NCBI GenBank assembly: GCA_025359665.1
Contig: JANYFU010000419.1
Coordinates: 1 to 41,425 of the forward strand
Direction: 5' to 3'
Source: Caulobacteraceae bacterium
GTDB taxonomy: Bacteria > Pseudomonadota > Alphaproteobacteria > Caulobacterales > Caulobacteraceae
DNA: 41,425 nt
The translations under genes were made by a program, and so were the position numbers. The stretch's first letter is position 1. Each line of letters opens with the position of its first letter. A model generated the notes under the pieces. It worked only from the letters and a program-made list of their open reading frames with translations, did no database searches and was not told the origin of the DNA. Positions 14,920-41,136 of the stretch are shown here, in pieces.

Positions 14920-14937
14920 TGTCACTCTATGTTGACA
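14920..14937. promoter_or_regulatory. PpsR/CrtJ-type operator at crtI
   Basis: TGTCACTCTATGTTGACA is a perfect TGT-N12-ACA, and in fact TGTCA-N8-TGACA, the known target of the redox/light repressor PpsR/CrtJ. It overlaps the most likely crtI start codon (ATG 14929-14931). A partner 8 bases upstream (14894-14911) is only weakly recognisable. Confidence 0.75.
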
Positions 14938-20102: not shown

Positions 20103-20121
20103 GTGTCTAATCTACATGACA
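20078..20121. promoter_or_regulatory. Tandem PpsR/CrtJ-type operator between crtD and crtE
   Basis: TGTCTAATCTACATGACA at 20104-20121 is a full TGT-N12-ACA site. Exactly eight bases upstream, 20078-20095 ends in ACA after N12 but begins with ATC rather than TGT, giving a weaker partner. A perfect 7-base inverted repeat TAGACAC/GTGTCTA (20090-20109) bridges the two. The site covers the crtD start and lies 50 bases before crtE, so it could control both directions. Confidence 0.72.
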
Positions 20122-27445: not shown

Positions 27446-27676
27446 ATGGCGGAAAGAGATGCGAGTACAGGCAGCTTGTCGGGCCTGACCGAGGCCGAAG
27501 CAAAAGAGTTTCATCGGATCTTCCTGGGGAGCCTTGTTCTCTTCGTGGCGATCGCGGTGACCGCGCACATCCTGGTGTGGGCGTGGCGTCCGTGGCTTCC
27601 CGGTGAACACGGCTATACCGAACTGACCACCGGCGTGAAGATGGCCAGCCAACTGGCCCTCGCGCACTTCGCATAA
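27446..27676 (+). CDS. pufB: Light-harvesting 1 beta chain with C-terminal extension
   Basis: A 76-residue LH1 beta polypeptide: [14 protein letters not shown] at the cytoplasmic face, one transmembrane helix, axial His41 for B875-type bacteriochlorophyll in [14 protein letters not shown]. Most LH1 beta chains stop near the WRPWLP segment; here about 24 residues ([11 protein letters not shown]...) follow, ending in a weakly hydrophobic [20 protein letters not shown] precedes the ATG. It is 12 bases before pufA. Confidence 0.95.
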
Positions 27677-27688
27677 GGGAGAGAAACA

Positions 27689-27901
27689 ATGTGGAGAATC
27701 TGGCTACTTTTTGATCCGCGCCGCGTCCTTGTCGCGCTGTTCACCTTTCTGTTCGGCCTCGCCGTGCTCATTCACTTCATCGTGCTCAGCACCCCGCGGT
27801 TCAACTGGATCGAAGGTCCAACCGCGAAGAAGCCGGCGCCGGCGGCGGCCGCGCAAATGCCCAATCTCGATCCGGCCAGGGCGCCGGTCAAAGCCGCCTG
27901 A
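27689..27901 (+). CDS. pufA: Light-harvesting 1 alpha chain
   Basis: A 70-residue LH1 alpha polypeptide with [18 protein letters not shown] at the cytoplasmic side, axial His29 in LIHFIVLST and the Trp40 of RFNW that hydrogen-bonds the pigment. The common LSTDRFNW here is LSTPRFNW. An Ala/Pro/Lys-rich tail ([14 protein letters not shown]) ends the chain. It is followed by a strong RNA hairpin. Confidence 0.95.
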
Positions 27902-27905
27902 AGGA

Positions 27906-27942
27906 AGCGGGCGTGTATCGACAAAGTTCGATACCGCCCGCT
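27906..27942 (+). promoter_or_regulatory. puf intercistronic RNA hairpin
   Basis: AGCGGGCG-T-GTATCGA pairs with TCGATAC-CGCCCGCT around a short loop, with one bulged base. It lies between pufA and pufL. In Rhodobacter a hairpin here protects the pufBA segment from 3' decay, giving more LH1 than reaction-centre mRNA. No T tract follows, so partial stabilisation is more likely than termination. Confidence 0.8.
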
Positions 27943-28003
27943 GTCCGACAATACTGAAGATCGTTTCAATTCCTTCGACGGATAACGGGCGGAGATATCG
28001 ACC

Positions 28004-28828
28004 ATGGCCCTGCTGAGTTTCGAGAGAAAATATCGTGTCAGAGGAGGTACGCTGATCGGCGGCGATCTCTTCGACTTCTGGGTCGGACCGTTCTACGTCG
28101 GATTCTTCGGCGTCACGGCAGTGTTCTTCGCCACGCTGGGAACCGCTTTGATCGTCTACGGCGCCGCGATCGGCCCAACCTGGGACATCTGGCGGATCAG
28201 CATTGATCCACCGGACGTCAGCTATGGCTTGCGGGTCGCGCCGATCAACGAAGGCGGGCTCTGGCAGATGGTCACCGCCTGCGCTCTGGGTTCCTTTATT
28301 TCCTGGGCGTTACGGGAAGTCGAAATAGCCCGGAAGCTAGGTATCGGCCTTCACGTGCCCTTCGCGTTCGGCATGGCCATATTCGCTTATTTCACGCTTG
28401 AGGTGATCCGGCCGATCCTGATGGGAGCCTGGGGCAACGCCTTCCCGTACGGCATCTTCAGCCATCTCGAGTGGGTGTCGAACACTGGCTATAAATACGT
28501 CAACTTCCACTACAACCCGGCCCACATGGTCGCCGTGTCGCTGTTTTTCACCACCACCTTCGCCCTGTCGCTGCATGGATCACTGATCCTTTCGGCGGCC
28601 AATCCGGGTGGTGGTGGCGAGGTAAAGACACCCGAACATGAAGACACTTTTTTCCGCGACGTGATGGGTTACTCGGTCGGCACACTCGGTATTCACCGGT
28701 TGGGTCTGTTCCTGGCCTTGGCGGCGGGCTTCTTTAGCGCCGTCTGTATTGTCATCAGTGGTCCGGTCTGGTCACAAGGTTGGCCGGAATGGTGGAACTG
28801 GTGGCGTAATCTTCCGATCTGGGGTTAG
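28004..28828 (+). CDS. pufL: Photosynthetic reaction centre L subunit
   Basis: A 274-residue five-helix membrane protein binding the special pair, quinones and iron. With a one-residue offset from Rhodobacter numbering, His154 and His174 ligate bacteriochlorophylls, His191 and His231 ligate the iron, and Glu213-Asp214 in EHEDTFF are the QB proton relay acids. The segment [24 protein letters not shown] is canonical. CGGAG precedes the ATG. It is 15 bases before pufM. Confidence 0.97.
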
Positions 28829-28843
28829 GGGAAGTACGAAATC

Positions 28844-29767
28844 ATGGCCGCTTATCAAAATATCTTCACACAGGTTCAGGTCCGCGGCCCCGCCGAAATG
28901 GGTGTCGCCGTCGCCGGCGACATCCGGCGGGACGGCAAGCCCTGGTTCTTCCGCCTGCTGGGAACCTTCGGCAACGCCCAGATCGGCCCCATTCATCTGG
29001 GTATGACCGGCATCGCCTCTTTGCTGTTCGGCTTCATCGCCTTCGAGATCATCGGGCTCAATATGCTGGCTTCGGTGAAATGGAACGTTGTGGAGTTCAT
29101 CCGCCAGCTACCCTGGCTGTCGCTGCAGCCACCGCCGCCCGAATACGGTATTCAGCTGTTCCCGCCGCTGGCGCAGGGGGGCTGGTGGCTGATGGCGGGC
29201 TTCTTCCTGACCGTCTCGCTGCTGCTCTGGTGGGCGCGCACCTACGCCAGGGCCAAGGCGCTGGGCCTTGGCACCCACGTGGCCTGGGGCTTCGCCTCGG
29301 CGATCTGGCTGTATCTGGTGCTGGGCTTCATCCGCCCGCTGTTGATGGGCAGCTGGAGCGAAGCGGTGCCGTTCGGTATCTTCCCGCACCTGGACTGGGT
29401 CGGGGCCTTTTCGATCCGCTACGGTAATCTGTTCTATAATCCCTTCCACTGCTTCTCGATCGCGTTCCTCTATGGCTCTACCCTGCTGTTCGCCATGCAT
29501 GGTGCGACCATCCTGGCCGTCAGCCGCTACGGCGGCGACCGCGAGCTCGAACAGATCACCGACCGGGGCACCGCTTCCGAGCGGGCCGCCCTGTTCTGGC
29601 GCTGGACCATGGGCTTCAACGCCAGCATGGAATCCATCCACCGCTGGGCCTGGTGGTTCGCGGTCCTGACCCCCCTCTCGGGCGGCATCGGCATCCTAAT
29701 CACCGGCACTGTGGTCGATGACTGGCACAGCTGGGCCGTCGCCCACCACTACGCCTTTACCGAGTAG
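28844..29767 (+). CDS. pufM: Photosynthetic reaction centre M subunit
   Basis: A 307-residue partner of PufL. Residue numbers coincide with Rhodobacter: His182 and His202 for bacteriochlorophylls, Tyr210 near the primary electron path, and His219, Glu234 and His266 for the iron. [26 protein letters not shown] is canonical. No pufC follows: the reaction centre lacks a bound tetraheme cytochrome and needs a separate donor. A terminator comes 53 bases after the stop. Confidence 0.97.
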
Positions 29768-29820
29768 GGGGGCCGAGCCTTCGCGGGAGCCGCGCCGCAT
29801 CCCGTCAATCTCAGAACATC

Positions 29821-29852
29821 AGGCCCGGGGCTTCACCGCTCCGGGCCTTTTT
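29821..29852 (+). terminator. Rho-independent terminator after pufM
   Basis: AGGCCCGGGGC and GCTCCGGGCCT pair (one G-T wobble) around CTTCACC-type loop bases, and the stem runs into TTTTT. It ends the bchXYZ-pufBALM transcript. Confidence 0.9.
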
Positions 29853-29955
29853 CATGGGTGCTGGATGATACGAGTAGCGGCTGAGTTGCGCCGCTAAGCT
29901 GGAGCCCTAACGCCCTTCAGAGGATCTCGGCCTACAGTTCGAAAAACGCCGATGG

Positions 29956-31344
29956 TCAGGCCGTGGCTTCGACGCGGCGGCGCAGCAAGGGAGCCATCGC
30001 GGCCAAGGTCACAAGCAGAAGAGCCATTTCCAGGCAATAGACCAGATCGTAACCGGCCGCGGGTCCCAATTCATTGTCCTTCAAACCACCAGCCACCAGA
30101 TCGCGAATAATACCGCCAAGAGCGATCGCCACCCCAGCGGCGGTGGCCTGTACCGCGCCCCAGGCGCCGAGCGCCAGGCCGGTCTGATCCCGCGCCGCGA
30201 GATTCATGGTGGCCGTAAGGGTGCCATGGCTGAACAGACCGCCACCGAACCCGATCAGCAATGTGCCGGCGCCGAACAGCAGGGGGTTGTGCAGCGGCGC
30301 GGCCAGGATCACCGCCATGAAGGCGGGCACGCCGACCATGGCGCCGGAACTGGCCATGCGGAACGGATCGGCGCCGCGGCTGAGAATCCGCGACGCCAAG
30401 CCAAAGCCCAGCACCGCCCCTACCGCCAGGGTGGCGGTCAATTTGGTGGTGTCGCCAACCGACAGATGCAGCACCTGGCCGCCATAGGGTTCCAGCAACA
30501 CGTCCTCCATGCTGAACGCCATGGTGCCCACGCCAACCGCGACCAGACGGCGAATGGCGTTGCCGCCGTGGATGAAACTGGCCCAGGATTGGCTGAACTC
30601 TGGCTTTGGAGCGTCGTCTAGCGCCCGTCTCGTGTGCCGCCCCTCCTGCTTCCAGACAGCGGTGGCGTTAAGGATCATGGTCAACAACGCGGCGCCCTGA
30701 ATCACCTGGATCAGCCGCCCGTTAGTGAAATCGGCAAGCAGCGCGCCGAAGACCAAGGCGCTGACGATCATGCCAAGCGCCAGGCTGACGTACATCAGGC
30801 CTACCACCTTGGGCCGGGACTCACTGGGCGCCAGGTCGGTGGCCAGGGCGAGGCCAACGGTCTGGATGGTGTGGAGACCCGCTCCCACCAGCAGAAACGA
30901 AACCCCGGCGCTGACCAGTCCGATCCATTTGGGCGCGTGGGCGGCATGATTGCTTCCCGCAAGCACGAGGATCGCGAAGGGCATGATGGCCAATCCGCCG
31001 AACTGGGCGAGGGTGCCGTTCCATATGAACGGCACCCGCCGCCAGCCAAGCGCCGATGTGTGGGTGTCGGAACGAAATCCTATTATGGCGCGGAACGGCG
31101 CGAACAGCAGCGGCAGCGAGATCATCACCGCCACCAGCGACGCCGGCACACCGAGTTCGACGATCATCACCCGGTTCAAGGTGCCCACCAGCAGGACCAG
31201 GGCCATGCCGACTGAAACCTGGAACAGGGACAGCCGCAACAGTCGCGAAAGCGGCAACTCTGGCGTCGCGGCGTCCGCGAACGGCAGAAAGCGCGGCCCC
31301 AGGCTCGCCAGCCTCCTCATCATCGCCGAACTGAGACGATTCAT
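29956..31344 (-). CDS. pucC: PucC-type light-harvesting assembly factor (BCD family)
   Basis: A 462-residue membrane protein of the PucC/LhaA/Bch2 branch of the major facilitator superfamily, about 12 helices. It begins PLSRLLRLSLFQVSVGMALVLLVGTLNRVMIVELGVPA, then GFRSDTHTSALGWRRVPFIW, which is the family signature, and EDVLLEPYGGQVLHLSVGDTT in the middle. These proteins help insert bacteriochlorophyll into antenna chains. Being third in pucB-pucA-pucC, its job is likely LH2 assembly. ATG 31344 is the family start; the upstream open frame is not coding. The Shine-Dalgarno is weak. Confidence 0.94.
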   Translation of the reverse strand: MNRLSSAMMRRLASLGPRFLPFADAATPELPLSRLLRLSLFQVSVGMALVLLVGTLNRVMIVELGVPASLVAVMISLPLLFAPFRAIIGFRSDTHTSALGWRRVPFIWNGTLAQFGGLAIMPFAILVLAGSNHAAHAPKWIGLVSAGVSFLLVGAGLHTIQTVGLALATDLAPSESRPKVVGLMYVSLALGMIVSALVFGALLADFTNGRLIQVIQGAALLTMILNATAVWKQEGRHTRRALDDAPKPEFSQSWASFIHGGNAIRRLVAVGVGTMAFSMEDVLLEPYGGQVLHLSVGDTTKLTATLAVGAVLGFGLASRILSRGADPFRMASSGAMVGVPAFMAVILAAPLHNPLLFGAGTLLIGFGGGLFSHGTLTATMNLAARDQTGLALGAWGAVQATAAGVAIALGGIIRDLVAGGLKDNELGPAAGYDLVYCLEMALLLVTLAAMAPLLRRRVEATA

Positions 31345-31392
31345 GATGTCACCGCACCCGATATTCCGGCGCGACGGCGCCGGACAAGAATA

Positions 31393-31420
31393 AGGGCCGG
31401 GATCAAGCGACCCCGGCCCT
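31393..31420 (-). promoter_or_regulatory. Hairpin between pucA and pucC
   Basis: AGGGCCGGG pairs with CCCGGCCCT around a ten-base loop; on the transcribed strand it is followed by TTATTCTT. A stem here is expected to make most transcripts stop or stabilise after pucBA, letting a minority read into pucC. Confidence 0.75.
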
Positions 31421-31448
31421 ATGTCAAACCCAAGAGGGGTGTCGCAAT

Positions 31449-31685
31449 TTAGCTCGCGGCCGGAGTCACCGGAGCGGTGGCCATGGGCGCGGCCATCGGA
31501 GCGGGAGCGGGCGCCACGGTGCTGACAGCGGCGGGCTTGGCGTTGCCTTCCCAATAGGCCGAGAACCAGGTCGTGTGGCTCAGGATGGAATAATGGACCA
31601 GCAACGCCGTCACCGCGACGGAGCCGAGGAACAGGGGCAGGCCAACGGTCGGCTTAACAACCAACCAGATTTCTTTCTGATTCAT
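31449..31685 (-). CDS. pucA: Light-harvesting 2 alpha chain
   Basis: A 78-residue LH2 alpha chain. [17 protein letters not shown] is the typical opening; Met1 would ligate B800. Axial His31 lies in [13 protein letters not shown]. Tyr44 and Trp45 in FSAYWEG are the pair that hydrogen-bonds B850, whereas B800-820 complexes carry Phe-Leu. The tail after NAKPAA is about 25 residues of Ala, Pro and Met, longer than usual. It is 12 bases behind pucB. Confidence 0.95.
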
Positions 31686-31697
31686 GACTGGTTTTCC

Positions 31698-31853
31698 CTA
31701 TTTGAGCCAAGGCGTCAGGACGAACGCCAGGGCGTGGGCGGCCAGCGCGATACAGAAGAACACGCGCGCGCCATCGATCACATGCGTGTGCAGTTCTTCG
31801 GACTCGGCCCGGGTCAACCCGGTCGGCCAAACTCTATCAGCATCATTCGCCAC
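31698..31853 (-). CDS. pucB: Light-harvesting 2 beta chain
   Basis: A 51-residue LH2 beta chain: [25 protein letters not shown], then axial His40 in AAHALAF and the end TPWLK. Arg30 in DGARVF corresponds to the Arg that contacts B800. The start is GTG 31853 with GAGAGGAGA eight bases upstream; the longer ATG frame to 32009 crosses the promoter region and is rejected. It leads the pucBAC operon. Confidence 0.95.
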
Positions 31854-32245
31854 GGTACCGTCTCCTCTCAGGACCTCGGAGCGGTCTGTGCCGTATCCGA
31901 GCGTCGTTAAGTTAAGACTGCTCTGCCCAGTGGGGTTCCCCAGGCCACAGTCACCAAGTCGCGTCCTGTTCAGTTGCGGTGAACCGCGCCATCCCCAGGG
32001 CACTGTCACCCTAGCCTTACGCTTTAGGGTGTCAAGCTAGAATTACAACGGTTTTACGCTGGATGACCCTATCCGTGGGCGGCGCTGGGCGCTGAACTTG
32101 CGAAGGGCTGACCAGGGACAATATCGGGGTCCGTGACGCGCGCAAAAATCAAGCCGAACGGGAATCGAAAACAGGATTGGCGCGAATTTCGAGGCGAATC
32201 AGACACCGCCACAACGATGGCGCCACGGCGAGCTAAGCGAACCCC
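31854..32245. promoter_or_regulatory. puc control region with tandem PpsR/CrtJ sites
   Basis: This 392-base gap separates pucB from the RNase H-like gene. It holds TGTCAAGCTAGAATTACA (32030-32047), a full TGT-N12-ACA, and eight bases away TGTCACCCTAGCCTTACG (32004-32021), which lacks only the last A. A 7-base inverted repeat CACCCTA/TAGGGTG spans the pair. The sites are 150-190 bases upstream of pucB. Nothing else recognisable lies in 32048-32245; no tRNA or small ORF with a convincing start. Confidence 0.72.
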
Positions 32246-32746
32246 ATGACCACACCGATCCGCCTATGGACCTGTTCCACACATCACGCCGCCTTCCGCT
32301 GTGGCGGTTGGGCGAGCGTGCGCTCGCTCGATGGACAGCTGACCGGCACGGCCGGGGGCGAGCGAAACACTACCGCGGCGCGGATGGCGCTGGCCGGACT
32401 GGCAGCCGGCCTGGCAGACTTGCCGCCCATCAAGGCCGGTCAGCCGCCCCAGACAATCGCCATGGAGACCAATAGTCCGGCCCTCGCCGCCTTTTCGACC
32501 ACCTTGGCGACGCTGTCCGCGACCAGCGAGAAACCACCGGAGGCGGACCTCGACCTGTGGGCTCGAATCATCACCGGCGCAAAGGGGCGCCGTTTAGCCA
32601 TGACCCTGGTTTCGATGAAGCCCGAGACCGGGACCGCCTTCGTGGCCGCCTGGGCGGACCTGGCGATGGACCGAGGCAAGACCCGGGGTGCGTTCGCCAT
32701 GGCCATTCCCAGAATCAACCTGGCCAGAATGCCTGGGGTGAGATGA
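32246..32746 (+). CDS. RNase H-like protein lacking catalytic acids
   Basis: A 166-residue protein that can be aligned by eye with bacterial RNase HI over its first 80 residues: LWTCSTHHAAFRCGGWASV for the TDGS-GG strand, then GGERNTTAARMALAGLAAGL for the TTNNRMEL helix and METNSPAL for TDSQYV. At three of the four catalytic places the acid is gone: Cys10 for Asp, Ala48 for Glu, Asn76 for Asp; only Asp138 could match the fourth. An RNA/DNA-hybrid nuclease is therefore unlikely; a binding role is possible. It is monocistronic, next to the puc control region. Confidence 0.6.
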   Translation: MTTPIRLWTCSTHHAAFRCGGWASVRSLDGQLTGTAGGERNTTAARMALAGLAAGLADLPPIKAGQPPQTIAMETNSPALAAFSTTLATLSATSEKPPEADLDLWARIITGAKGRRLAMTLVSMKPETGTAFVAAWADLAMDRGKTRGAFAMAIPRINLARMPGVR

Positions 32747-32780
32747 GGGGTCCGGCGTCCACGCGACCCTCTCGACATCC

Positions 32781-32811
32781 CGATATGTCTGGTATAACAG
32801 ACTAAATATCG
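32781..32811. promoter_or_regulatory. Nested palindrome upstream of the membrane protein/HTH pair
   Basis: CGATAT-GTCTG-gtataa-CAGAC-taa-ATATCG: two perfect inverted repeats, one inside the other, 13 bases before the ATG at 32824. The central GTATAA looks like a -10 element, so a bound repressor would block the promoter. The HTH protein encoded at 33255 is the obvious candidate for autoregulation. Confidence 0.62.
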
Positions 32812-32823
32812 GGTTTATACGTC

Positions 32824-33252
32824 ATGGAGTCGGCTTTGAGTTACAACACCAAGGTTTCTCTGGCCACCGTCGTCGGTCTCGCCATGGTCTATGGGGCGTA
32901 TTTTCTGTGGGCCTGGAGGCCCGGGCACAGCGCGCCGGAGATATTCACCCACATCGTCGGCGCGGCGATCCTGCTTGTCGTGGTGATGATCGCGCTCGCC
33001 ACCGCCGTCGCGGTTCGAGAGGTCGTCATTGTGAAATCCGGTGGTCACGTCGACGAACGGGACCAAACCAATGAACTGCGCAGCGCCCGCAACGGCTACT
33101 ATGCTCTGATCAGTCTGATCTGGCCCGCGCCCTTCGTTGTCCTAGCCGGCGCTTCACCGGTGCTGCTCGCCAATCTGGCCCTGGCCGTGCTGGTCCTGGC
33201 CGAGATGGTCCATTTCGGATCGCGGGTGGTCTACGATCTGCGCGGCGCCTGA
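32824..33252 (+). CDS. Four-helix membrane protein paired with an HTH regulator
   Basis: A 142-residue integral membrane protein with helices near 12-30, 42-64, 92-110 and 112-128. Similar small proteins (DUF2178-like) often precede Cro/CI-type regulators of the YozG kind. A hydrophilic loop (KSGGHVDERDQTNELRSARNGYY) joins helices 2 and 3; the DERD-x4-R pattern is typical. The start is either ATG 32824, which has no Shine-Dalgarno, or TTG 32836 with GGAG six bases upstream. Two bases separate it from the HTH gene, so it is probably a sensor or effector partner. No enzymatic role is evident. Confidence 0.72.
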   Translation: MESALSYNTKVSLATVVGLAMVYGAYFLWAWRPGHSAPEIFTHIVGAAILLVVVMIALATAVAVREVVIVKSGGHVDERDQTNELRSARNGYYALISLIWPAPFVVLAGASPVLLANLALAVLVLAEMVHFGSRVVYDLRGA

Positions 33253-33254
33253 TC

Positions 33255-33467
33255 GTGGCTTCGACCCAGGTCACCAACCGCCTGCGGGTGTTCAGATTCA
33301 ATAACGGTGAAATGACCCAACAGGCGCTGGCCGACCGCGTCGGCCTGACCCGCCAGACCATCGTCGCCATCGAAAAAGGCCACTACGCTCCGTCGCTGGA
33401 GGCCGCATTCCGAATCGCCCGGGCGTTCGGGGCGGGGATTGAGGACGTATTTGGATATTCAGATTAA
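33255..33467 (+). CDS. Small Cro/CI-type HTH regulator
   Basis: A 70-residue DNA-binding protein consisting of one helix-turn-helix: MTQQALADRVGLTRQTIVAIEKGHYAPSLEAAFRIARAFGAGIEDVFGY, the compact XRE form with the ending IEDVF seen in YozG-like regulators. The start is GTG 33255, two bases after the membrane protein stop. It probably represses its own operon at the palindrome 32781-32811. Convergent with cbbR. Confidence 0.85.
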   Translation: MASTQVTNRLRVFRFNNGEMTQQALADRVGLTRQTIVAIEKGHYAPSLEAAFRIARAFGAGIEDVFGYSD

Positions 33468-33488
33468 GCGACGGCGGGCGGCGGCTAT

Positions 33489-34409
33489 TCAATGTTCCGG
33501 CAGCCGCGGCAAGTGCGCCGCGCCTTCGGCCAAGGTGAACTCGCGAAACGCCTTCATCGCCGGCAGCAGCGCTTTTTCGGCGTGATAGGCGACATACCAG
33601 GTACGCATGATTGGCAGGCCTTTGACGTCGAGCACCGCCAAGCGACCAGTCTCCACCTCGAAGGCGACGGTATGGGCCGAGATTACCGCCAGGCCCAGTC
33701 CCGCCATAACCCCCTGTTTGATGGTCTCGTTGCTGCCGATTTCGATGCTGAAATGGGTGTCGCGCTTGACCGGTCCGTGGAAGAATTCTTCGAATACCAC
33801 CCGGGTGCCGGAACCCTCCTCGCGCATCAGGAAGCGCTCTTCGGCGATCGCTGATTTCTCGATGCCGACCTGGCCGACCAGCGGATGGTCGGGGGGCCCG
33901 ATCATGATCATCGGGTGCTCGCCGAACGGCTCGGACACCAGATTGAGCCAGTCGGGCGGCCGGCCCATGATCGCCACGTCGATCTTCAGCCGCTTGAGGG
34001 CGTCGATGGTCTCGACGCGGTTGCCCACCGACAGGGTGATGTCGACCTTGGGAAATCGGCTGGCGAATTCAGCGATCAGGCGCGGCGCATAGTATTTCGC
34101 CGTCGAGGTGATGCCCACCACCAGCGATCCCGACACCACCCCCTTCAGCGCCGAAAGCTCGCCCTGCGCGAGTTGGACCGCCGCGTCGATCTGGTTGGCC
34201 AGATCCAGCACCACCGCTCCGGCCCGGCTGGCCTGAAGGCCCTTGGAGGTGCGGTCGAACAGCTCGAAGCCGCAGATCGCCTCCAGCTCCTTCAGGCGGG
34301 TGGTCATGGCCGAGGGCGTGATACCCACGGCGCTTGCCGCCCCGTTCAGGACGCCATGGCGCGCGATGGCGCGAACGGCTTCAAGCTGCTTCAGGGTCAA
34401 GCCACGCAT
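33489..34409 (-). CDS. cbbR: LysR-type regulator of the cbb operon
   Basis: A 306-residue LysR activator, divergent from the Calvin-cycle genes, which fits CbbR. The N-terminal winged HTH is LTLKQLEAVRAIARHG...AAASAVGITPSAMTTRLKELE, followed by FDRTSKGLQASRAG; the C-terminal effector domain carries VGITSTAKYYAPRL and EEGSGTR. CbbR activates cbb transcription in response to metabolites such as RuBP or NADPH. The start codon overlaps the palindrome at 34409, so binding would repress cbbR itself. Confidence 0.93.
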   Translation of the reverse strand: MRGLTLKQLEAVRAIARHGVLNGAASAVGITPSAMTTRLKELEAICGFELFDRTSKGLQASRAGAVVLDLANQIDAAVQLAQGELSALKGVVSGSLVVGITSTAKYYAPRLIAEFASRFPKVDITLSVGNRVETIDALKRLKIDVAIMGRPPDWLNLVSEPFGEHPMIMIGPPDHPLVGQVGIEKSAIAEERFLMREEGSGTRVVFEEFFHGPVKRDTHFSIEIGSNETIKQGVMAGLGLAVISAHTVAFEVETGRLAVLDVKGLPIMRTWYVAYHAEKALLPAMKAFREFTLAEGAAHLPRLPEH

Positions 34410-34423
34410 TAGATTTAATCTAA
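34409..34423. promoter_or_regulatory. Probable CbbR (LysR-type) binding palindrome
   Basis: TTAGAT-TTA-ATCTAA is a perfect inverted repeat and contains the LysR consensus T-N11-A. It lies at the cbbR start codon and 125 bases ahead of cbbF. A second AT-rich element (AATTTCAAATTTTC, about 34437-34450) may be the activation half-site. Confidence 0.7.
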
Positions 34424-34547
34424 TCCATCTCCCGATAATTTCAAATTTTCATTGAGGATGAAAACCGCCAAGACCTTGCTCGTCAACCGGGTTTCCCCGA
34501 TGAGTTGGCACGCGACGCCAAACATGGCCCGCGGTTGGAGGCAAACG

Positions 34548-35600
34548 ATGGGCCAAGGCGGAACACTGGACGGTCTGCTCGACGCGGAAGCGCGGGCCTC
34601 GGGTCCTGTCGGTCAGGCCCTGGCCGAGGCCTTCGTTTGTATGGCCGGGGCCGCCAAAGCTCTGTCGGTGCTGATCGCCACACCACCGGTTGGAGGCCGG
34701 CTTGGCGCGAAGGCCGGGACCGCCAACAGCGACGGCGACCAGCAGAAGAAACTCGACATCGTCGCCGAGGACCTGTTCTCGGACTCCCTGCGCAAGGCCG
34801 GGATCGGGGCCTATCTGTCCGAAGAGGTCGAGGAAGCGACGGTGTTTCATCCGGCCGGCCTGCTGGCGGTGGCTATCGATCCACTCGACGGCTCGTCCAA
34901 TATCGACGTCAACGCCCCGATCGGCACCATCTTCTCGATACTGCCGATGGTTGCCGAAGCGGTCGCCGATCCGGCATCGGCGTTCCGTCAACCGGGCCGC
35001 AAGCAGCTGGCGGCGGGTTTTTTCATATATGGACCCCAGACCTCGCTGGTGGTGACATTTGGCAAGGGGGTCCACCTCCTGGTCCTCAGCCCAGAACTCA
35101 ACGATTTCGTGCTGGTCGAATCGGGAATCACTATTCCGCCGGACATGCCCGAATACGCGATCAACGCCTCTAACTATCGCCACTGGCACGAGCCGGTGCA
35201 GACCTACATCGACGATTGCGTGCGCGGAGAGGAGGGACCCCGCGGGCGCAACTTCAACATGCGCTGGATCGGTTCCATGGTCGCGGACGCCTATCGCATC
35301 TTCATGCGCGGCGGCATCTTCCTGTATCCGGGCGACAAGCGTCCCGGCTATGAACAGGGCCGGCTGCGCCTCATGTACGAGGCCAATCCAGTCGCCTTCC
35401 TGGCTGAACAGGCTGGCGGCGCCGCCACCGACGGCATCGATAACATACTGGACCGCAAGCCCCATTCGCCTCACCAGCGGGTGCCGTTCGTGATGGGCTC
35501 GGCCGACAAGGTCGAGCGCGTGCGTGAATACTATCTCGATCTCAATCCACCGACGCGGGACGCGCCCCTGTTCGGTCGGCGCGGCCTGCTGCGCGGCTGA
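34548..35600 (+). CDS. cbbF: Class I fructose-1,6-bisphosphatase
   Basis: A 350-residue phosphatase that removes the 1-phosphate from fructose 1,6-bisphosphate (and possibly sedoheptulose bisphosphate) in the Calvin cycle. The metal-binding core AIDPLDGSSNIDVN is intact, with QKKLDIVAED and LSEEVEE before it and RWIGSMVADAYRI and GGIFLYPGDKRPGYEQGRLRLMYEANP after. The frame is open back to 34452, but only ATG 34548 has a good Shine-Dalgarno (TGGAGG, seven bases) and it gives family length. First gene of cbbFPTALS. Confidence 0.94.
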   Translation: MGQGGTLDGLLDAEARASGPVGQALAEAFVCMAGAAKALSVLIATPPVGGRLGAKAGTANSDGDQQKKLDIVAEDLFSDSLRKAGIGAYLSEEVEEATVFHPAGLLAVAIDPLDGSSNIDVNAPIGTIFSILPMVAEAVADPASAFRQPGRKQLAAGFFIYGPQTSLVVTFGKGVHLLVLSPELNDFVLVESGITIPPDMPEYAINASNYRHWHEPVQTYIDDCVRGEEGPRGRNFNMRWIGSMVADAYRIFMRGGIFLYPGDKRPGYEQGRLRLMYEANPVAFLAEQAGGAATDGIDNILDRKPHSPHQRVPFVMGSADKVERVREYYLDLNPPTRDAPLFGRRGLLRG

Positions 35601-35619
35601 TCGGGAAAGATAACACGCC

Positions 35620-36498
35620 ATGTCGCACAAGCATCCGATCATCGCGATCACCGGTTCATCGGGAGCCGGGACCACCTCGGTCAAGCGGACCTTCGAGCAG
35701 ATCTTTCAACGCGAGCATATCAAGGCCGTCTATATCGAAGGTGACGCTTTTCACCGCTATGGCCGCGTGGAGATGGCGGCGAACATGACCGCCGCCGCCG
35801 CCGCCGGCAACACCCACTACAGCCACTTCGGCGACTACGCGAACCTGCTGCCGGAGCTCGAGGCGGTGTTCAAAGAGTATGGCGAGACCGGCGGCGGCAA
35901 GACCCGCCACTATATTCACGACCAGCAGGAGGCCGAGAAATACGGCGTCGCGCCCGGCAATTTCACCGATTGGGATGCTTTCGAAGACAGTTCCGACCTG
36001 CTCTTCTACGAAGGCCTTCACGGCGCCATCGTCACTGACGAGGTCGATATGGCCAAGCATGTCGATCTTAAGATCGGCGTGGTGCCGGTAATCAATCTGG
36101 AATGGATCCAGAAACTGCATCGCGACAAGTCGGCCCGCGGCTATACCGACAAGGCCGTGACCGACACCATTCTTCGGCGCATGCCTGACTACATCAATTT
36201 CATCTGCCCCCAATTCAGCGAGACCGACGTCAATTTCCAGCGCGTGCCGACGGTCGACACCTCAAACCCGTTCATCGCTCGCTGGATTCCGACCCCGGAC
36301 GAATCGATCGTAGTGATCCGGTTCAAGAAGCCCCACGGGTTCGACTTTCCCTATCTGCTGTCGATGATCGACGGTAGCTTCATGAGCCGGGCCAACTCCA
36401 TCTGCATCCCCGGCGGCAAACTGGATCTGGCCATGCAGCTGATCCTGACGCCGATGATCCTCAAACTGGTCGAGCGCCGTCGGCGCAGCCACCGCTGA
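35620..36498 (+). CDS. cbbP: Phosphoribulokinase
   Basis: A 292-residue class I (bacterial) phosphoribulokinase making ribulose 1,5-bisphosphate from Ru5P and ATP. The P-loop is [12 protein letters not shown], followed by the substrate segment EGDAFHRY and [23 protein letters not shown] holds the catalytic Asp/Glu region. These octameric enzymes are activated by NADH. It lies between cbbF (19-base gap) and cbbT (14-base gap). Confidence 0.97.
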
Positions 36499-36512
36499 CC
36501 GAAAAGACACCC

Positions 36513-38534
36513 ATGTCCGATATCACCACCCCGAACACCGCCGCCAAAGTCACCCACGACCAGATGGCCAACGCCATCCGCTTCCTTGCCGTCGATGCGG
36601 TCGAGCAGGCCAAGAGCGGTCACCCCGGTATGCCTATGGGCATGGCAGACGTGGCCACCGTGCTATTCACCAGATTCATCAAATATGATCCCAGGGCCCC
36701 GTCCTGGCCGGACCGCGACCGGTTCGTGCTGTCGGCCGGCCACGGATCGATGCTGATCTACGCGCTGCTGCATCTGACCGGCTATCCAGAGATGACCATC
36801 GACCAGATCAAGCGGTTCCGTCAGCTGGGATCCAAGACGCCCGGGCACCCCGAATACGGCCACACCCAGGGCGTCGAAACCACCACTGGTCCTCTTGGCC
36901 AGGGCCTCGCCACGTCGGTCGGCATGGCCATCGCCGAGCGAATGATGGCGGCTCGCTTCGGAGCCGACCTGGTCGATCATCATACCTATGTGATCTGCGG
37001 CGACGGCTGCCTGATGGAAGGCGTTAGCCACGAAGCCATTGATCTGGCCGGCAATCTGAAGCTCGGCCGCCTGATCGTGCTTTGGGACGACAACAAGATC
37101 ACCATCGACGGCGCCACCTCGCTTTCCACCGCCACCGATCAGGTCAAGCGCTTCGCCGCCGCCGGCTGGCATGTCCAGGCCATCGACGGTCACGACCCGG
37201 CCGCCATCACCCGGGCGATCCGCAGGGCGAAAGCCGATCCCCGTCCCTCCATGATCGCCTGTAGCACCGTTATCGGCTTCGGCGCACCGACCAAGGCGGG
37301 CACGGAGGGCGCCCACGGCGCTCCGCTTGGCCCGACGGAATCGGCCGGCGCCCGCGCGGCCCTGAACTGGCCCTACGCGCCGTTCGAAGTCCCGACCGAT
37401 ATTCTGGCATCCTGGCGCAAAGCCGGCCGGTCTTCGGTCCGCGCTCACGGCGCGTGGAAAAAGCGGCTGGCCGCATCACCGGATCGCGAGCGCTTCAACG
37501 CCGCGCTGTCCGGAGATCTGCCGACCCGGGTCGCGGCCGATCTGATGGCCTACGCCGCCGAGCTGGTGGAGACAAAGCCCAATATCGCCACCCGTAAGGC
37601 CTCGGAAAACACCTTGGGCGTGATCAATGCCGCCACCGACCTGACCATCGGTGGCTCGGCCGACCTGACACACTCAAACTACACCATCACCAAGGGTATG
37701 ACCTCGGTCACGGCCGAGGATTTCTCCGCGCGCTATGTCCGCTACGGCATTCGCGAGCACGGCATGGCCGCCGCGATGAATGGCCTCGCCCTGCACGGCG
37801 GCCTCATTCCCTATGGTGGCACCTTCCTCGTGTTCGCCGACTATGCCCGGGGCGCGATCCGCCTTTCGGCCCTGATGAAGCAACGGGTGATCTATGTCTT
37901 CACCCACGATTCCATCGGCGTCGGCGAAGATGGCCCCACCCACCAGCCGGTGGAAACCATGGCCAGCCTACGCGTCATGCCGGGCCTGATCACCTATCGC
38001 CCCGCCGACGCGGTGGAGACCGCCGAATGCTATGCGGTGGCCCTAGCCGAGCGCCACGCCCCGTCGGCCCTGGCCCTATCGCGTCAGAACCTGCCCACCC
38101 TTCGCCTGACGGCCGACGGCGTGAACCGGTCTGCATTGGGCGCCTATGTGTTGCGCGACACCAAGGGGCCGCGCCAGGCGACCCTGCTGGCCACCGGCTC
38201 GGAGGTCCATCTGGCCGTCGCGGCGAGCGAAGCCCTGGCCGTCGAGGGCGTCGAGGTGGCGGTCGTCTCGATGCCGTCCTGGGAGCTGTTCGAGCGCCAG
38301 GACGCCGAATATCGGGCCGAGGTGCTCGGCGCCGCGCCGCGCGTCGCCATCGAGGCGGCCCTGGGCTTCGGTTGGGATCGCTGGATCGGGCCGAACGGCG
38401 CCTTCGTCGGCATGAGCGGCTTTGGCGAATCGGCGCCGGCCGGCGATCTCTACAAGCACTTCGGCATAACCGCCGAGGCCATCGCCGCCGCCGCCCGCAA
38501 ACTCGTGGCCGCCCCTGTCGCCAACGCCGCCTAA
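36513..38534 (+). CDS. cbbT: Transketolase
   Basis: A 673-residue thiamine-diphosphate enzyme of full length. It shows [13 protein letters not shown], the TPP motif [13 protein letters not shown] ending in DDNKITIDG, the dimer signature [14 protein letters not shown] and [18 protein letters not shown]. It moves two-carbon units in the regenerative phase. Being inside cbbFPTALS, it is the Calvin-cycle copy; another may exist elsewhere. Confidence 0.96.
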
Positions 38535-38557
38535 CTCTGCCGAAAAGGAGCAACCGG

Positions 38558-41136
<2,579 letters not shown>

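Follow-up and report, generated by a model that had tools for sequence, protein, structure and literature searches.

We report that the plus-strand open reading frame (ORF) at positions 32246..32746 of a 41,425 nucleotide stretch of DNA from a Caulobacteraceae bacterium (hereafter the window) encodes a protein of 166 amino acids that is predicted to have an RNase HI fold and that lacks the catalytic acids of RNase HI. Among the genomes sampled, the family to which it belongs is found in Caulobacteraceae and nowhere else. The family is kept by selection, and the protein therefore probably binds something instead of cutting. The reading that we favour, with moderate confidence, is that it derives from RNase HI, is not catalytic, and contacts a partner via its last helix and a C-terminal tail.

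Predicted RNase HI fold and loss of the active site

The ORF starts at ATG 32246 and its stop codon ends at 32746. This ATG is the likely start since only three codons lie between it and an in-frame TAA upstream, and none of these is ATG, GTG or TTG, and the GC content by codon position (60/62/80%) together with the presence of homologues (31-56% identity) indicates that the ORF is coding. When aligned with four genuine RNase HI rows, Cys10 (codon 32273..32275), Ala48 (32387..32389) and Asn76 (32471..32473) of the window protein fall at the positions of Asp10, Glu48 and Asp70, and Ala134 is found at that of Asp134, i.e. the window protein has none of these four catalytic acids. The preliminary description of this DNA, which identified an RNase H fold stripped of its catalytic acids, was therefore right as to coordinates, ORF and the three replaced residues. 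Its further claim, that selection has kept the scaffold after loss of the nuclease site, is borne out by the predicted fold, the trees and the dN/dS values (from pairs of relatives) given below.

Searches with the window protein alone gave no Pfam match (no PF00075 at E≤1) and, against the PDB sequences, three chance-level matches, none of which is an RNase H. The NCBIfam RNase HI model NF001236 matched with E 4e-4 and 19.8 bits (cut-off 160), and the protein thus scores below the cut-offs of both PF00075 and NF001236. Among six family members scanned, L106 (2e-15) and L111 (1e-15) match PF00075 above the cut-off, L114 (3e-5) and L109 (2e-4) score just under it, and L018 and L017 have no PF00075 match. 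The AlphaFold model of the window protein, based on an alignment of 78 rows, has a pLDDT of 94.6 and a pTM of 0.89, and its predicted secondary structure elements follow the RNase H order b1-b2-b3-aA-b4-aB-aD-b5-aE. The best solved structures identified with Foldseek were the RNases HI of Chlorobium (1.3e-9) and E. coli (1.5e-9), and the VIA comparison of the model with E. coli RNase HI gave Z 16.6 and an rmsd of 2.8 Å over 140 residues; structure prediction and fold search thus both return the RNase HI fold. For L106, which has the complete acid triad, the model (30 rows) has a pLDDT of 94.7 and the comparison with Chlorobium RNase H1 gave Z 20.5 and rmsd 1.7 over 140 residues. The matches from the viral structure library were RNases H encoded by phages, retroviruses and giant viruses, and their scores were weaker or similar. 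Given the PF00075 matches of L106 and L111 and the fold match to E. coli RNase HI, the homology to RNase HI is not due to chance.

Compared to bacterial RNase HI (PF00075, NF001236), the fold and the order of the elements are the same, as are W8, GGW, the GG preceding the first helix, R46, L49, D103 and W105 (W8, GGW, G37, G38, L49, L56 and A137 are common to the family and RNase HI), but D10, E48, D70, D134, H124 and the hybrid contacts are lost and the family has an extra C-terminal element. Residues 151-166 of the window model are barely covered by the fold matches, the exception being 4ibn (Z 15.4, model residues 1-166). A 78-member family profile, used at lower stringency, matches 367 of 385 genomes of the class. 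Among the matches listed, those outside the family mostly end at approximately position 110-123 of 158, as expected since genuine RNase HI lacks the tail; several run to 130-142 and one (G707) to 156 through a stop.

To follow the loss of residues, 129 loci were aligned, of which four are genuine RNase HI and 125 (window included) belong to the family, the latter drawn from 110 of the 143 carrier genomes and the named record L019. This gave 111 distinct family sequences, and 80 members in a non-redundant set (below 80% identity). D10 is kept in 4, E48 in 8 and D70 in 24 of the 111 sequences, and only L106, L108, L111 and L112 have all three acids intact. Positions 10, 48 and 70 each have at least 10 residue types across the family. 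The RNA/DNA contacts, which include Asn44, Asn45, Gln72 and His124, have been lost as well: N44, N45, Q72 and H124 are present in 0 of the 80 members, N16 and D134 are kept in two members each, and N100 in 10 (65 have an acid at this position). L106, L108, L111 and L112 also lack N44, N45, Q72, H124 and D134. Moreover, in the window model no helix is predicted between residues 92 and 102, the site of the basic handle in E. coli RNase HI.

When trees were rooted on RNase HI, the members with an intact triad constituted one of the deepest lineages irrespective of whether the acid columns were masked or not. The unmasked tree (92 rows below 85% identity, to which three sequences close to L106 were added) was computed with a quick method and the masked tree (67 rows below 75% identity and of at least 140 aa, the very long rows L127 and L124 having been left out beforehand) with a careful one. 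At least two changes of the intact state and at least eight of D70 are needed on the masked tree. In both trees the acid-less L061 (genome G333; A, A and E at the acid positions) branches off before all other family members, and the family minus L061 has a support of 99/75 in the masked tree with weak forks just inside; hence the earliest branching order is uncertain. The position of L061 may mean that the site was lost more than once, or it may be a long-branch effect. Intact-acid orthologues had been named in the preliminary description as a sign of a sequencing or alignment error, and such orthologues do exist (4 of 111), but they form one deep lineage and most members by far are acid-less, so that sequencing error can be discarded as the explanation.

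For 22 close pairs of family members (72-95% identity), 21 of which are without the full triad, dN/dS varies between 0.08 and 0.38 with a median of 0.17. These values indicate purifying selection and show that the relatives have been conserved as proteins after the site was lost; no pair includes the window protein, its nearest relatives being too far.

Distribution of the family and the photosynthesis genes

With the window protein as query, relatives were detected in 143 of 390 Caulobacteraceae genomes and in eight of 22 genera, and the three relatives with a name are records of Caulobacteraceae, Caulobacter and Phenylobacterium. Of 150 genomes sampled from the order, 16 matched: the window's own genome, 12 of the same family and three of another family, and the matches in these three are genuine RNase HI as judged by sequence. 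A profile of the C-terminal element alone (39 rows, the window protein among them, which it matches with E 4.7e-19) was found in 19 of 249 genomes of the order, all Caulobacteraceae. In the loci read, stop codons inside some matches turned out to be the genes' own ends. The genome from which the window derives also encodes a separate RNase HI (165.6 bits) and an RNase HII, and an ordinary RNase HI is present alongside the family gene in 15 of 16 chosen carriers; the only carrier with no RNase HI match, G379, has a genome that is 76% complete. In the four triad-bearing carriers the family copy appears as a second, weaker match in the RNase HI search. One genome, G437, has two full-length family copies (L094 and L104) on different contigs. 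Using tblastn with the window protein at E 0.01, no match was obtained among phages or among plasmids. As to a viral-contig origin, three stretches fit a pattern and none was confirmed.

The gene had been placed between light-harvesting antenna genes, named there as LH2/puc, and Calvin-cycle genes in the preliminary description. On the antenna side this stands, with the antenna alpha and beta genes (LHC matches) on the minus strand. On the other side, a small membrane-protein ORF (32824-33252, plus strand) and an HTH_3 ORF (33255-33467, plus strand) separate the gene from a cbbR-like gene, and it is not, therefore, an immediate neighbour of the Calvin-cycle genes. By eye, the ORFs beyond the HTH_3 ORF look like cbbR, fructose bisphosphatase, phosphoribulokinase and others of the Calvin cycle. 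The membrane-protein-like ORF has no confident Pfam match and the HTH_3 ORF starts 2 bases after it; the pair, next to the cbbR-like gene, resembles a regulator unit of two genes. As read by eye, GTG 31853 is a more likely start of the antenna beta gene (31701-31853, minus strand) than position 32009, where the ORF begins, which leaves approximately 390 bases before the RNase H-like gene.

The region 27479-41136 includes a second antenna beta match, reaction-centre L and M, the antenna pair and the Calvin-cycle cluster, which ends in a RuBisCO large-subunit-like ORF (by eye), and the source of the contig is possibly a photoautotroph within Caulobacteraceae. The PpsR/CrtJ site pattern TGT-N12-ACA occurs three times in the window: at the start of a crtI-like ORF (14920-14937), between crtD- and crtE-like ORFs (20104-20121) and upstream of antenna beta (32030-32047; gene names by eye), a count at chance level (expected mean 2.8).

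A reaction centre is present in 30 of the 390 Caulobacteraceae genomes. The gene was found in seven of these 30 and in 136 of the other 360 (Fisher p 0.17, odds ratio 0.5), such that a reaction centre is lacking in 136 of the 143 carriers, and in the six other genomes with both, the gene and the reaction centre are on different contigs. Within the genus of the window genome (16 genomes) the gene is present in 6 of 8 phototrophs versus 2 of 8 others (p 0.13); this weak, non-significant trend was not relied on because the genomes compared differ in size and completeness. To study the neighbourhood, ORFs from 23 contexts of relatives (8.5-17.5 kb) and from the window were compared all against all; since L017 and L050, as well as L018 and L062, are on the same contigs, the number of distinct contexts is 21. 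The window antenna proteins gave chance-level matches only (E 0.26 or worse) in the 23 contexts, and no conserved neighbour was detected across the set, the largest non-family cluster being present in nine contexts at scattered distances. L019 and L065 have several neighbours in common, as close relatives would. Twelve upstream ORFs were judged by eye to be ligase, LacI-, OmpR-, HAD-, Lrp-, MocR-like and others. A link to photosynthesis is thus not supported, either as co-occurrence of orthologues with photosynthesis clusters, a check named in the preliminary description, or as the regulation of nearby transcripts suggested there, and we caution that function should not be read from the photosynthesis neighbourhood of one genome.

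The last helix, the C-terminal element and possible functions

Residues fixed in the family (at least 90% of 80) are G34, A36, R40, F132, A135, W136, G148, F150, I154, P155, N158 and L159, with F132, W136, I154, P155 and N158 in 79 of 80 each; A135 and L159 are shared with part of the four genuine RNase HI rows. The family signature is therefore Phe132/Trp136 on the last helix plus a basic C-terminal GxF...IP[KR]xNLx[KR], and the window protein carries F132, W136 and IP[KR]xN158. Its last helix (residues 129-147, 32630..32686, plus strand; from DSSP of the model and conservation) has the family-specific Phe132, Trp136, Asp138 and Asp142 as well as conserved basic residues at 143 and 145, and F132 and W136, four residues apart, adjoin the tail. 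Its C-terminal element (residues 148-166, 32687..32743, plus strand; defined from the model, the tail profile and conservation) contains GxF and IPRxNL, is basic, and is modelled as a strand (150-153) and a short helix (156-159). Between 65 and 79 of the 80 members have a basic residue at each of positions 26, 40, 46, 115, 143, 145, 156 and 161 (79 at 40 and 156, 78 at 161), 53 have one at position 6 and 52 at position 18; position 138 is acidic in 74 and position 142 in 76.

We infer that the family descends from a divergent RNase HI copy in Caulobacteraceae. Its predicted fold is still that of RNase H, the two-metal site is gone together with the residues that grip the hybrid, and F132, W136, GxF150 and I154-P155-[KR]-x-N158-L-x-[KR]161 form the constant element. 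Such a protein would not cut nucleic acids and would function by binding. Its working surface appears to have moved to the last helix and the basic tail, and the partner would be common to these bacteria, either a protein of the DNA/RNA machinery or a nucleic acid gripped in a manner unlike that of RNase H. Given the conserved basic residues, nucleic-acid binding by another face is possible. The tail may instead be conserved for packing or folding, which is a fair alternative to binding: the model is highly confident in the tail, and its basic residues could simply be paired with the family-specific acids at 138 and 142. A more specific and more tentative version of partner binding is that of a neofunctionalised Caulobacteraceae RNase HI in which the catalytic face has been abandoned, the last helix and the IP[KR]xNLx[KR] tail serve as a new binding face of a small adaptor docking on a conserved part of the DNA/RNA machinery, and the triad-bearing members record early steps.

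It is rather unlikely that the old cleft still holds RNA/DNA hybrids or R-loops and leaves them uncut, so that the protein would shield these from RNase HI or compete with it. The RNase HI fold, the net charge (+7 for the window protein; family median +4), the basic residues at positions 40 and 46 (79 and 69 of 80) and Thr at 42 (43 of 80) and 43 (40 of 80) are in keeping with hybrid binding, but an RNase H-style grip is disfavoured because, along with the acids, the contact residues N44, N45 and Q72 are lost and N16 and N100 are seldom kept, and no helix is modelled at the site of the basic handle. Even less probable is a nuclease, or another metal enzyme, with an active site rebuilt from non-standard acids. 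Candidates for these would be Glu at position 10 (24 of 80) and the acids at 39 (68), 101 (65), 103 (71), 138 (74) and 142 (76 of 80); against this, positions 10, 48 and 70 vary, the four ordinary RNase HI rows share the acids at 39 and 103, and those at 138 and 142 belong to the last helix, beyond the position of D134.

That the protein locally regulates the puc or Calvin-cycle transcripts next to it, as suggested by its place next to the antenna-gene promoter region and by the trend in its own genus, is very improbable considering the many carriers that lack a reaction centre, the chance-level antenna matches and the scattered neighbours described above. We give as little weight to a decaying duplicate without function: the active site is eroded and the presence is patchy (143 of 390), but dN/dS is below 0.4 in 22 of 22 pairs (relatives, the window copy not among them) and the tail is strictly conserved across deep divergence.

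We also considered docking on the SSB tail as in E. coli RNase HI, for which K3, R29, R31, K33 and K60 are reported as contacts (PMC6618814). The equivalent positions are basic in 1, 3, 0, 11 and 0 of 80 members, respectively. As K60 is missing from two of the genuine RNase HI rows (four in all) as well, these counts fail to support such docking but do not speak against it.

RNases H without activity are of a known kind, with precedents in a B. subtilis RNase HI (NP_390082, YpdQ) and in Prp8, a splicing factor containing an RNase H-like domain. NP_390082 is reported to lack both RNase H and other nuclease activity (PMC1950709), and the Prp8 domain is described as having an RNase H fold and an incomplete active site (PMC3985635). 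Both are likened to our family by description only: Prp8 for its RNase H fold with an incomplete site, and NP_390082 as a protein of RNase HI type that persists in a genome with active RNases H. The Caulobacteraceae family is RNase HI-derived and occurs together with an ordinary RNase HI in most carriers examined, and with an RNase HII as well in the window genome. The group of the B. subtilis protein is linked to an absent basic handle (PMC1950709), and the text consulted names no role for it. A literature search of open-licence full texts identified no paper on the tail-bearing family, its breadth or its graded loss of the site among the matches listed. The graded series, with members having three acids, one or none, represents a nuclease turning into a probable non-enzyme under selection. 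Finally, as Caulobacter and Phenylobacterium are among the named records of the family, gene deletion and pull-down are feasible in it.
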